Shown here: positions 9,128 through 37,051 of the stretch, piece by piece
Position numbering within the stretch: the stretch's first letter is position 1
How the letters are laid out: each line of letters starts with the position of its first letter
Assembly (NCBI RefSeq): GCF_003591005.1
Contig: NZ_QYYD01000003.1
Coordinates: 186,001 to 250,000, forward strand
DNA length: 64,000 nt
Source: Rhodopseudomonas palustris
GTDB lineage: Bacteria > Pseudomonadota > Alphaproteobacteria > Rhizobiales > Xanthobacteraceae
Direction: 5' to 3'
Notes under the pieces: model-generated
Seen by the model: the letters and a program-made list of their open reading frames with translations, nothing else
Told to the model about the DNA's origin: nothing
Databases searched by the model: none
Made by a program: the position numbers and the translations under genes

Positions 9128-9312
9128 TTCACTCGCTCCCGCGTAGAAAATTTCCCATGCTCAGTGATCCGCCAAACCCTCGTCAGCCCAATCTCGGTCG
9201 CCCGCCTCCGGTGGCGGCGCCGGCCCCTATGTTTGCGCTCGCCCGAGCCTGCACGGGGATGGAGTCGACGTTCGCGTTGACAGTGCAACCCGGACCACCC
9301 TACGGTAGCCGG

Positions 9313-9483
9313 CGACGGTTCCCGCAAGGGATCAATAGGGAATGCGGTGCGGAGTCTCACGATTCCAATGCCGCAGCTGCCCCCGCAACTGTGAGCGGCG
9401 AGCCTTTCGCCAAGCGCCACTGGGCTACCAGCCCGGGAAGGCGGCGAAAGGCAGCGACCCGCGAGCCAGGAGACCTGCCGTCG
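9313..9483 (+). promoter_or_regulatory. Cobalamin (adenosylcobalamin-type) riboswitch
   Basis: The aptamer is closed by CGACGG (9313-9318) pairing with CCGTCG (9478-9483). Inside are the hallmark segments in order: GGGAATGCGGTGCGGAG, then the B12 box GCCGCAGCTGCCCCCGC followed by AACTGTGAGCGG, then GCCACTGGG, CCCGGGAAGG, and GCCAGGAGACCTGCC before the closing stem. Such riboswitches lower expression when the cobalamin coenzyme is abundant. It lies 116 nt before the TonB receptor start. Confidence 0.95.
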
Positions 9484-9566
9484 TTCGTGGTCACACGCGA
9501 GCACATTGGGCGGGGTGTCCTGATGGGTGTCGAACTGCGGCGTTCAGCGTCGCGGCCAGGCCTCGT

Positions 9567-32093: not shown

Positions 32094-32185
32094 CGCGCGC
32101 GTCCGCGTGCGATGCAAATCGGCCCTGCGCCGCGAGCGACCCCGGTCGGCGTTGTCGCGGCCGGCCAAACCTGCTAATCCACCGG

Positions 32186-32257
32186 CGTTTCGCGCGACTG
32201 GCGACCACGGATGGAGCACCATCGGGAAGCGCGGAATGGATCTGCCGCGCGCCTGGG
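32186..32257 (+). promoter_or_regulatory. ZTP (pfl-type) riboswitch upstream of purH
   Basis: P1 pairs TTTCGCGC (32186-32193) with GCGCGGAA (32227-32234). Between them are the conserved GACTGGCGA, a P2 hairpin GGATGG-AGCA-CCATC and the CGGGAAGCGCGG joint. A second hairpin region ends in the hallmark CCTGGGCA at 32250-32257. ZTP aptamers bind ZMP/ZTP, the intermediate consumed by PurH, and turn expression on. The conserved GGGCA could alternatively pair with TGCCC just before the purH start, enclosing the AAGAGGA ribosome site. Confidence 0.9.
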
Positions 32258-32290
32258 CATGTGTTTCCTTCCCCTAAGAGGATCCTGCCC

Positions 32291-34221: not shown

Positions 34222-35310
34222 TCAAGCCGCCGCACCTTTCTGCTGAGCGCCGCGACGTGTCGTTCGCCGGCTCAGCACTGCGTCAGCCAGCTCATGCAGC
34301 ACGGTCTCGGTGGTCGCCCAGTCGATGCAGCCGTCGGTGATGCTTTGGCCGTAGAGCAGCGGGCGGCCCGGGACGACGTCCTGGCGGCCGGCGACCAGAT
34401 TGCTTTCGATCATTACGCCGATGATGCGGTCGTCACCGGCCGCGAGCTGGCGGCCGATATCGGCTGTGACCTTGGGCTGGTTCTCCGGCTGCTTGTGGCT
34501 GTTGGCGTGGCTGGCGTCGATCATCAGCCGCGGCGCCAGGCCGTTCTTCCCCAGCACCGCTGCTGCGGCGTCGACGCTGGCGGCATCGTAGTTCGGCGCA
34601 ATGCCGCCGCGCAGGATGACGTGGCAGTCGCTGTTACCGGTGGTGGCCGCGATGGCGTTGCGGCCACGCTTGGTCACCGCCATGAAGTGATGCGGCTGCG
34701 CCGCGGACTTCACCGCCTCGGCGGCGATCCGCACGTTACCGTCGGTGCCGTTCTTGAAGCCGATCGGGCACGACAGGCCGGACGCCAGTTCGCGGTGAAT
34801 CTGGCTCTCGGTGGTGCGGGCACCGATCGCGCCCCAGGCGACCAGGTCGGCGATGTATTGCGGCGTGATCAGATCGAGGAATTCGGTGGCGGCGGGCAGG
34901 CCGAGATTGTTGACGGCCGCCAGCACATGGCGCGCCAGCCGCAGACCCTTGTCGATGCGGAAGCTGCCATCGAGATCGGGGTCGTTGATCAGCCCCTTCC
35001 AGCCCACGGTGGTGCGCGGCTTCTCGAAATACACCCGCATCACGATCTCGAGCCGGTCGGACAGGGTCTCGCGCAGCGCCGCCAGACGGCTGGCATAGTC
35101 CATGGCCGCGGCCGGATCGTGGATTGAACAGGGGCCGACCACGACCAGCAGCCGGTCGTCGGCTCCGTTCAGGATGGCGTGAATCGCGCTGCGGCTCGCC
35201 GCGACGGTGCGGGTCGCGGTCAAGGTACGCGGCACCTCGCCCAAAACTTCGTCGGGCGTACTCAGTTCGGTGATGTTCTGCAGGCGAAGGTCGTCGGTGG
35301 TGGTCAACAC
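34222..35310 (-). CDS. aroG: 3-deoxy-7-phosphoheptulonate synthase, AroFGH (class I) type
   Basis: A 362-residue DAHP synthase, the first enzyme of the aromatic (shikimate) pathway, joining PEP and erythrose 4-phosphate. Seen: VVVGPCSIHDPAAAMDYA near 56-73, RVYFEKPRTTVGWKGLINDPDLDGSF, GAIGARTTESQIHRELASGLSCPIGFKNGTDG and the metal-binding DASHANSHKQ. GTG 35310 has AGGAG ten bases upstream. The gene is preceded by a terminator and an aromatic-rich leader peptide, so it is very probably controlled by attenuation. Which symbol (aroF, aroG or aroH) fits the feedback type is not certain. Confidence 0.95.
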   Translation of the reverse strand: MLTTTDDLRLQNITELSTPDEVLGEVPRTLTATRTVAASRSAIHAILNGADDRLLVVVGPCSIHDPAAAMDYASRLAALRETLSDRLEIVMRVYFEKPRTTVGWKGLINDPDLDGSFRIDKGLRLARHVLAAVNNLGLPAATEFLDLITPQYIADLVAWGAIGARTTESQIHRELASGLSCPIGFKNGTDGNVRIAAEAVKSAAQPHHFMAVTKRGRNAIAATTGNSDCHVILRGGIAPNYDAASVDAAAAVLGKNGLAPRLMIDASHANSHKQPENQPKVTADIGRQLAAGDDRIIGVMIESNLVAGRQDVVPGRPLLYGQSITDGCIDWATTETVLHELADAVLSRRTTRRGAQQKGAAA

Positions 35311-35351
35311 GGCAGTTTGCTCCTGATGAGGAGACCTGCCGGCTTCAAACG

Positions 35352-35378
35352 AAAAAGCCGCCAGGTCTGGCGGCTTTT
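35352..35378 (-). terminator. Intrinsic terminator (attenuator) ahead of DAHP synthase
   Basis: On the minus strand AAAAGCCGCCA, loop GACC, TGGCGGCTTTTT. It lies 42 bases before the aroG start codon and 22 bases after the leader-peptide stop. The 5' arm GCCGCCAG (35367-35374) can instead pair with CTGGCGGC in the leader peptide coding region (35422-35429), the expected antiterminator. Confidence 0.85.
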
Positions 35379-35399
35379 CGGATCTCTATGCTGCAATCT

Positions 35400-35477
35400 T
35401 CAGATCGCGCGAAATCCTCCCGCCGCCAGCGAGCTGCTAAAATAGAAGTACCAGTACGAGGCGGTCGGACGGATCAT
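35400..35477 (-). CDS. Aromatic leader peptide of the DAHP synthase attenuator
   Basis: A 25-codon ORF whose residues 7-13 are SYWYFYF: six aromatic codons in a row (TAC TGG TAC TTC TAT TTT), followed by a small Ser/Ala/Gly tail and a final GFRAI before TGA. Tyr, Trp and Phe are the three end products of the pathway started by the downstream DAHP synthase. A stall at these codons would free CTGGCGGC (codons Leu-Ala-Ala) to pair with the terminator 5' arm. The start ATG 35477 lies seven bases after a candidate -10, so the transcript may be leaderless; GTG 35495 is a longer alternative. Confidence 0.85.
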   Translation of the reverse strand: MIRPTASYWYFYFSSSLAAGGFRAI

Positions 35478-35483
35478 GCGGCT

Positions 35484-35512
35484 GATATAGACCACGCCGG
35501 CGGCTTTGTCCA
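35484..35512 (-). promoter_or_regulatory. Candidate promoter of the aro leader transcript
   Basis: On the minus strand TGGACA (35507-35512), exactly 17 bases, TATATC (35484-35489). Six bases then separate it from the leader ATG, so the predicted first base of the RNA is the A of ATG or next to it. It lies between the MFS stop and the leader, independent of the MFS gene. Confidence 0.6.
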
Positions 35513-35522
35513 CGGATCGCGT

Positions 35523-36923
35523 TCAGGTGTCCGACGAAGGCTGGACCCGCGTCAGCAGCGCCAGGCCGCCGACGAAGAACAGCACCAGCACCGCCATGCC
35601 GGCCTTCTGGCTGGCGGTGATGGCCGTCACCGTGGCGATCAGCAGCGGGCCGATGAACGACGTCACCTTGCCGGTCAGCGCGAACAGGCCGAAATACTGC
35701 GCGATGCGATCGCGCGGCGCGATGCGGATCAGCAGCGTGCGCGACGCCGCTTGCAACGGTCCGCCGGCGATGCCGATCAGGCAGCCGAGCAGCAGATAGG
35801 CGCGCTCGGCCGGCGCGGCGAACAGCGCGCCGCCGGGTTGCGGCGCGGTGACTTCGACGAACAGGATGTGGGACGGATCGATCAGCAGGATGCCGGCGAT
35901 CGCGATCAGCAGCAGCACCATCGAGCCGGCGATCACCCGCTTGGAGCCGAGCGCGTCGTCGAGCCGGCCGCCGATGAAGGCGCCGAAAGTTGCGGCGATC
36001 GCCAGGATGACACCGAAGCTGCCAATCTGAATCGTGTTCCAGCCGAACGTGCCCGTGGCATAGATGCCGCCGAATGCGAATAGCGAGACGAGGCCGTCGG
36101 TGTAGATCATGTTGGCGAGCAGGAAGGCGGCGAGCGAGCGCCGGTTCGGCAGATCGCGCAGCGTCTCGCGGAGTTCGCGCAGGCCTTCGCGCACCGCGGC
36201 GCGGACTTTCAGCTTGGCGGGAAAATCCGGCGTCAGCAGAAACATCGGCAGCACGAACACGACGAACCAGATGCCGGTGAGCGGTCCGCTGATGCGATCG
36301 CCTTCATGCGTCGCCGGATCGAGCCCGAACAGCGGTGTGATGCCCAGAAGCGTCTTGCCGCTCTCGGGGCTTGCGGCCAGAAAGCCGAGCACCAGGATCA
36401 ACGATAGGATGCCGCCGATGTAGCCGGTGGCCCATCCGGTGCCTGATAATCGGCCGATCTTCTCGGGCGGCACCAGATTGGGCATCATCGCGTTGTTGAA
36501 CACGGTGGCGAACTCGACCCCGATGGTGGCGAGCGCGTAGGCGATCAGCAGCGGCAGGATCAGATGCGGGTCGCCCGGTCTGCCGAACCACATCAGGCAA
36601 GAGCCGATCACCAGCATCGCGCCGAACAGCGCGATCCACGGCTTGCGCCGGCCGCTGGCGTCGGCCACCGCGCCGAGCACCGGCGAGGCCAGTGCGATCA
36701 CAAAGCCGCTCGCCGCGGTGGCGAAGCCCCACCAGGATTGTCCGGTTGCCGGATCGGGCGCGACGTAAGTGACGAAATACGGCGCGAAGATGAACGTGGT
36801 GATCAGCGTGAAGTAGGGCTGCGCCGCCCAGTCGAACAGGATCCAGCCAAGCACTGCAGGGCGCGACGGATAGACTCGCGGCGTCGCGTCCGATGCGATG
36901 TTCGTGGCGAGCGATGACGCCAT
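35523..36923 (-). CDS. MFS transporter, UMF1/Atg22-like family
   Basis: A 466-residue membrane transporter with about 12 hydrophobic segments. The N-terminal GWILFDWAAQPYFTLITTFIF is the signature of the UMF1 family, followed by SGFVIALASPVLGAVADASGRRKPWIALFG, the usual MFS loop between helices 2 and 3. Members move unknown solutes. The start was placed at 36923 (MASSLATN); extra upstream codons are not family-like. It ends 45 bp before the aro leader peptide start codon. Confidence 0.9.
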   Translation of the reverse strand: MASSLATNIASDATPRVYPSRPAVLGWILFDWAAQPYFTLITTFIFAPYFVTYVAPDPATGQSWWGFATAASGFVIALASPVLGAVADASGRRKPWIALFGAMLVIGSCLMWFGRPGDPHLILPLLIAYALATIGVEFATVFNNAMMPNLVPPEKIGRLSGTGWATGYIGGILSLILVLGFLAASPESGKTLLGITPLFGLDPATHEGDRISGPLTGIWFVVFVLPMFLLTPDFPAKLKVRAAVREGLRELRETLRDLPNRRSLAAFLLANMIYTDGLVSLFAFGGIYATGTFGWNTIQIGSFGVILAIAATFGAFIGGRLDDALGSKRVIAGSMVLLLIAIAGILLIDPSHILFVEVTAPQPGGALFAAPAERAYLLLGCLIGIAGGPLQAASRTLLIRIAPRDRIAQYFGLFALTGKVTSFIGPLLIATVTAITASQKAGMAVLVLFFVGGLALLTRVQPSSDT

Positions 36924-37051
36924 TTTGTTTGCCCATGCTGCGCGAGGGCCACATTGTTCGCCCCTGCTGCGCCGGCATTTGGCCGGCCCGGGCAATCCCT
37001 ATAGGATTCTCCGGCGCAAAGGCAGCCCGCGCATCTCTTCGGAACCTACAG

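Follow-up and report, generated by a model that had tools for sequence, protein, structure and literature searches.

A leader with mixed Tyr, Trp and Phe codons precedes type I aroG in alpha-, beta- and gamma-proteobacteria and is very probably a ribosome-mediated attenuator

Introduction

Attenuation ahead of a DAHP synthase gene has two described precedents. In the aroR-aroF attenuator of C. glutamicum (Neshat et al. 2014, as covered in the available part of the review PMC11802643), an aromatic leader peptide precedes DAHP synthase, and ribosome stalling at that leader raises DAHP synthase transcription. The uORFC-13-1 motif lies before aroF and combines a putative Phe-reading uORF with a terminator and possible -10 and -35 elements; in the available part of its description, the 24 representatives come from Acholeplasma and environmental sequences only (PMC8632094). 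The rhizobial trpL attenuator (rnTrpL) of alphaproteobacteria belongs to a transcript that opens with the leader ORF (available part of PMC7298713). The Rfam family Phe_leader (RF01859), which serves pheA and pheST, consists of an aromatic leader and a terminator. The DAHP synthases of E. coli are under TyrR and TrpR control (PMC11802643), and TyrR or TrpR control of aroG has been predicted for Vibrionales and Pasteurellales (available part of PMC5343134).

Here we analyse an element upstream of aroG in Rhodopseudomonas palustris. The window, meaning the whole stretch of 64,000 nucleotides that was analysed (contig NZ_QYYD01000003.1, positions 186,001 to 250,000), contains a short leader ORF rich in codons for the pathway end products, with an intrinsic terminator between this ORF and aroG. 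The resemblance to aroR was considered at the level of function only; aroR belongs to another phylum, and its F-Y-F run contains no Trp (PMC11802643). Compared by description, uORFC-13-1 differs in that it carries an RBS and one or more Phe codons, with no Tyr/Trp run described in the available part of the source (PMC8632094). The rhizobial trpL leader, in turn, has Trp codons only, controls trpE(G) and has demonstrated trans roles (PMC7298713), whereas the present one is a mixed Tyr/Trp/Phe leader before aroG. Phe_leader differs in its genes, and the window scores 25.3 bits against it, below the gathering score of 55. The mechanism and the target enzyme are thus already known from the two precedents; what is new is a separate, very wide RNA family, mostly with all three aromatic amino acids in each run. 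No paper on a proteobacterial aroG attenuator was found in the literature searched, which takes in few subscription journals and not the older comparative genomics of attenuators.

Results

Anatomy, conservation, covariation, spacing, the folding switch point and promoter position were all determined by computation. On the minus strand of the window, a -35-like hexamer TGGACA (35507..35512) is followed after 17 nt by a -10-like hexamer TATATC (35484..35489), which ends 6 nt before the leader ATG, a leaderless geometry with a predicted start at 35477. The leader ORF (MIRPTASYWYFYFSSSLAAGGFRAI and stop, 35400..35477) has 25 codons, from the ATG at 35477 to a TGA at 35402-35400. Within it lie region 1 (35460..35475, including ACCGCC), which in the fold may form a protector stem with region 2; six control codons in a row, Tyr-Trp-Tyr-Phe-Tyr-Phe (35439..35456); and region 2, the 5' arm of the antiterminator (CTGGCGGC, 35422..35429). 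Region 2 is complementary to region 3 (GCCGCCAG, 35367..35374), whose partner is either region 2 in the antiterminator or region 4 (TGGCGGC, 35357..35363), the 3' arm of the terminator. The terminator is laid out as GCCGCCAG-ACC-TGGCGGC-TTTTT, and its T-tract (35352..35356) supplies the predicted 3' end, at 35352, of a leader RNA of ~126 nt. Downstream are AGGAG (35320..35324), the likely ribosome-binding site of aroG, and aroG itself (34222..35310, GTG start at 35310), the presumed regulated gene. It encodes a type I DAHP synthase of 362 aa that matches PF00793 (DAHP_synth_1) at E 1.2e-92 and scores above the cut-off of TIGR00034 (aroFGH). The promoter, the 25-codon ORF, the aromatic run, the antiterminator arms, the terminator and the aroG start had all been read from the minus strand by a first-pass annotation, and each is present there base for base.

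The leader RNA of the window folds at -56.1 kcal/mol, as compared with -40.1 (sd 4.1) for shuffled sequences; this is 3.9 sd lower, and none of 200 shuffles was as low. Its minimum-energy fold consists of the 1:2 stem and the terminator. A consensus scan of the window for promoters and terminators called neither the leader promoter nor the leader terminator, and both depart from consensus: the terminator stem extends into the T-tract, and the -35 hexamer is TGGACA instead of TTGACA.

Promoter position was scanned in 110 distinct upstream stretches (75 alphaproteobacterial, 23 betaproteobacterial and 12 Xanthomonadales-type), some of them grouped by kinship code or leader likeness alone. In 68 of the 75 alphaproteobacterial stretches, 6-7 nt separate the best -35/-10 pair from the leader ATG, and the distance is 4-9 nt in 97%, as compared with 18% in shuffles; TGGACA or TGACA stands at a similar position in most of the alphaproteobacterial loci displayed. 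Shine-Dalgarno-like 4-mers precede the leader in 4/75 (15-nt stretch) and aroG in 63/83 (22-nt stretch), a comparison that is not like-for-like. The Xanthomonadales-type distance is 7-9 nt in 10/12. In the 23 betaproteobacterial stretches, the best promoter pair is no better than in shuffles (3.2 vs 4.4) and none has an SD-like 4-mer before the leader; by eye, TATAGT or TATAAA is found ~25-40 nt upstream of the leader. This geometry suggests leaderless transcripts in the alphaproteobacteria and near-leaderless ones in Xanthomonadales, with perhaps a short 5' UTR without an SD sequence in the betaproteobacteria. The leaderless start proposed in the annotation is therefore well supported for the alphaproteobacteria, as a start predicted from promoter geometry. 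The aroR transcript of C. glutamicum is reportedly leaderless. A term search of the main text of two transcription start site papers, one on B. japonicum (PMC4842269) and the other on B. cenocepacia (PMC4603805), did not find the word aroG.

Both alternative stems are conserved in an alignment of 46 leaders. The antiterminator (2:3) forms in 87.8% of cells, where shuffles average 84.1 and none of 500 was as high; its covariation score was also reached by none of the 500. Four 2:3 pairs are changed on both sides, a number reached by 20/500 shuffles, and further pair types were matched by 57/500. In 26 of the 46 rows the outermost pair is not intact, and sliding the partner gives at most 50.4% pairing. 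For the terminator (3:4), pairing is 95.6% (0/500 shuffles), the covariation score is again unmatched (0/500), and four pairs are changed on both sides (3/500). An alignment of aroG upstream regions had been chosen beforehand as the check on the annotation, which it largely bears out: the aromatic codons persist, and the stems persist and covary.

The protector stem, which is the competing stem of the annotation, is only partly supported. By duplex energy, 1:2 pairing beats shuffles at p<=0.05 in 31 of 88 leaders, with 4.4 expected, and the window is among them (p = 0.04); as a contiguous helix it does so in 22/88, again with 4.4 expected, and the window gives p = 0.41. A second antiterminator helix, between GGA after region 2 and TCC before region 3, had been suggested by the alignment; it did not exceed shuffles (p<=0.05 in 4/88, with 4.4 expected) and was dropped.

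From this arrangement we infer translation of the leader, ribosome stalling, termination and a response to each of Tyr, Trp and Phe. Transcription would start at or beside the leader AUG, and the leader would be translated at once. When charged Tyr-, Trp- and Phe-tRNA are ample, the ribosome is expected to pass the run and to cover region 2 while the polymerase makes region 3; with region 2 covered, 3:4 would form and transcription would stop at the T-tract. When any one of the three is short, the ribosome would stall in the run with its front edge just short of region 2, allowing 2:3 to form, the terminator to be pre-empted and DAHP synthase to be made. Judged on its sequence features, the aroG element is very probably a ribosome-mediated transcription attenuator, and one that shortage of any one of the three charged tRNAs would probably open.

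The position of the ribosome was modelled by folding the RNA up to region 3 under a mask from -15 to +12 around the A-site codon, limits that were our choice. In the window, the antiterminator has a probability of 0.75-0.78 at every codon of the run, 0.78 before the run and 0.73 without a ribosome. Past the run it falls to 0.55, 0.33 and 0.00 at the next three codons and stays at <=0.05 for six codons; at later codons it is 0.16-0.22, returning to 0.76 at codon 25 and standing at 0.21 at the stop. Over 88 leaders, the median antiterminator probability goes from 0.70 where the run begins to 0.565 at the last aromatic codon. Relative to that codon, the drop below half comes at -1 to +2 codons in 65 leaders and elsewhere in 22, with no switch in one. 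With the ribosome at the stop, values in the 12 loci folded range from 0.00 to 0.88. Pre-terminator RNA without a ribosome favours the antiterminator in 9 of the 12 (range 0.09-0.86), which suggests that termination would depend on timing and on coupled translation. Since the fold favours the antiterminator without a ribosome, and equally before and inside the run, readthrough may occur on transcripts that are untranslated or translated slowly.

Spacing between the control codons and region 2 was counted from the first base of the last aromatic codon. The region 2 core begins 14 nt past this base in 47/88 leaders, and 11-20 nt past it in 86/88 (1 and 24 nt in the other two), although this count was not blind, the core having been picked as the one nearest to the best complement of region 3. 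The 88 leaders include the weak leaders L049 and L068; L192, L194 and L196 were omitted from the spacing and mask analyses. The aromatic fraction is 0.86/0.22/0.15 in frames 0/1/2, a comparison that is biased, the run having been defined in frame 0, and is given no weight.

The composition of the run bears on which amino acids are sensed. We consider it unlikely that the attenuator senses mainly one of them, Phe or Tyr, with the other aromatic codons as interchangeable drift. Such a reading has a precedent in the F-Y-F leader of C. glutamicum aroR, where Phe limitation triggers the response and Tyr availability is without effect (available part of PMC11802643); it also accords with the interchange of F and Y at the same place in related leaders, and with the 19 of 88 non-redundant runs that contain F and Y and no Trp. 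However, 68 of the 88 runs, from loci of all three groups (alpha, beta and gamma), contain F, Y and W together (the one remaining run has F and W without Tyr), and in the window the masked fold gives a near-equal antiterminator probability at each codon of the run. These observations favour a run that reads all three. Among named loci, the leaders of Oxalobacteraceae, Bordetella and Cupriavidus (within L040-L087) have a run without Trp.

Region 2 lies inside the leader ORF and is read in frame 2 in 67/88 leaders, in frame 0 in 11 and in frame 1 in 10, and is therefore kept as RNA and not as peptide. This bears on the possibility that the leader RNA or peptide acts mainly in trans, like rnTrpL/peTrpL of S. 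meliloti, with cis attenuation minor. The rhizobial trpL transcript does start at its AUG (available part of PMC7298713), and the aroG leader has a similar promoter geometry, but a peptide that is not kept past the aromatic run, together with linkage to aroG and the antiterminator spacing, points to cis action, and we regard a mainly trans-acting leader as very improbable.

Conservation of the element was followed with R1, a covariance model built from the 46 aligned leaders, from which the weak leaders L049 and L068 were excluded. A protein search found type I aroG at E <= 1e-40 in 23 of 198 family genomes, and strong R1 matches (84-111 bits) occur in exactly those 23; the other 175 all remain at <=38 bits. 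The sensitivity of R1 within the family is partly by construction because 7 of the 46 training rows come from it. Most weak family matches cover the 3' part of the model alone, and a few (24.6-33.6 bits) span its whole length. Six of the weak matches (32-38 bits) were inspected at their loci, and none has aroG next to it or an aromatic leader. One genome of the 11 drawn from the genus (G089) has neither type I aroG nor an R1 match.

Leader, region 2 arm and terminator were found together in 83 of 103 aroG loci, with start and end placed by hand in seven of them (L034, L038, L055, L058, L059, L082, L091). The leader ATG was shifted two codons up in L015, L018 and L032, and the leader of L188 was taken from a GTG. 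Two loci with too little upstream DNA, L060 (52 nt) and L067 (199 nt), were left out; L067 nevertheless shows leader and terminator. Among named loci, the best 80 of at least 590 relatives, leader and terminator precede aroG in 61 (the weak leaders L049 and L068 included) and are absent in 19, one of these with only 52 nt of DNA before aroG. Among the carriers are Mesorhizobium, Bradyrhizobium, Devosia, Phenylobacterium, Dyella, Rhodanobacter, Xanthomonas, Stenotrophomonas, Bordetella, Massilia, Janthinobacterium, Burkholderia and Cupriavidus; aroG loci without the element, among the same best 80, include those of Erwinia, Buttiauxella, Photobacterium, Enterovibrio, Thauera, Methylotenera and Rhodocyclus. 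In a quick protein tree, the carrier label changes 6 times, as compared with 17.1 in shuffles, and well-supported branches force 2 changes. Leaders of family members are near-identical to those of named Bradyrhizobium loci.

Wider draws gave a similar picture. Among 398 genomes drawn phylum-wide, R1 has 52 matches at E <= 1e-5, of which 48 precede aroG (10 in family members by protein search, 38 by locus inspection). The remaining four are Rfam Phe_leader at gathering score, and the ORFs behind them are presumably, as recognised from sequence, two pheA-like and two pheS-like genes. The order-level draw of 397 genomes yielded 64 that match R1, at 65 places; of the 53 places examined, 47 precede aroG (11 + 36), five precede tyrS and one is a decayed second copy. 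Homologues of the aroG leader thus occur in alpha-, beta- and gamma-proteobacteria; carriers are present in rhizobial groups, the setting that the annotation had in mind, but the range is much wider. The decayed copy (G888, L226, G888:C48:62204-64032) has an aroG fragment alone downstream; by eye, against the intact copy L216, three Tyr codons of the leader are lost and regions 2, 3 and 4 are unchanged. This single case of codon loss is what would be expected if the gene imposed selection on the codons.

A run of at least six F/Y/W residues occurs in one of the 846 small ORFs of the window (10-60 aa, counted from the first start codon), namely the aroG leader. That the hairpin merely terminates a small RNA or the MFS-type gene upstream (35523-36995, minus strand), whose end lies 45 nt ahead of the leader ATG, with the aromatic ORF there by chance, is scarcely credible, given that 20 first-order Markov windows contain no such run in 25,530 small ORFs, that the element tracks aroG across genomes and precedes it in alpha, beta and gamma loci, and that sequence farther upstream already diverges within the genus (L002 vs L009, by eye).

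In an Anaerolineae (Chloroflexota) MAG record (L084), an aromatic leader MSRYFSFFSWYGYF stands before aroG, ~206 nt upstream of the aroG match, and is followed by an unrelated long GC-rich hairpin; this may be an attenuator of independent origin, or the contig may be misbinned.

Rfam 15 assigned no family at gathering score to the leader of the window, where the best sub-threshold match is RNAI (33.1 bits, cut-off 47), probably reflecting the hairpin. Among 20 further loci, none of 12 aroG leaders or 3 tyrS leaders has a family at gathering score. Elsewhere in the window there are a cobalamin riboswitch (9299-9496, plus strand) and a ZMP/ZTP riboswitch (32184-32265, plus strand), the latter immediately upstream of an ORF that we take to be purH.

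Leaders that match R1 were also found upstream of tyrS. In the family of G843 (81 genomes), tyrS is the next gene at 29 of 30 R1-match loci (L251-L278, L280); these 29 include the five order-level tyrS places (L235, L236, L237, L239, L240). One tyrS product that was checked matches TIGR00234 and PF00579. The leaders are Tyr-rich, of the FVYFYYVTDIPAAA type (for example MTKTSASFVYFYYVTDIPAAA), and are followed by a terminator; by eye, stretches CGGCGGCT and AGCCGCCG, which complement each other, lie behind the leader together with a T-tract. A literature search on tyrS attenuation turned up a paper on histidine genes. The Tyr-rich leader is thus a candidate attenuator of the tyrosyl-tRNA synthetase gene tyrS.

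Other aromatic genes of the genome that holds the window were inspected as well. A trpL-like leader ending in RRWWRTS precedes trpE(G) (L106, position 1019, plus strand), so that trp and aroG may be attenuated separately. The same genome holds a type II DAHP synthase (L107/L001, G000:C10), and no aromatic leader was seen in the upstream stretch of that gene that was read (L107).

Discussion

Taken together, the leader may represent one homologous RNA family of alpha-, beta- and gamma-proteobacteria that travels with type I aroG and acts as a three-input switch, opening the shikimate pathway on shortage of Phe, Tyr or Trp. Its inputs would be retuned by codon swaps in different lineages, as in the leaders whose run has no Trp, namely those scored from named Oxalobacteraceae and some others; a related Tyr-reading attenuator would act on tyrS; and wherever aroG is not under TyrR and TrpR, the aroG element would be the main control of entry into aromatic synthesis. 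We offer this wider picture tentatively, as having slightly less than an even chance of being right as a whole.

In such a switch, one leader could integrate three tRNA pools, with the distance from control codons to antiterminator serving as a built-in ruler in keeping with ribosome size. If it does read all three end products, this widespread attenuator would provide a testable answer to how flux into the shikimate pathway is set in many other proteobacteria.
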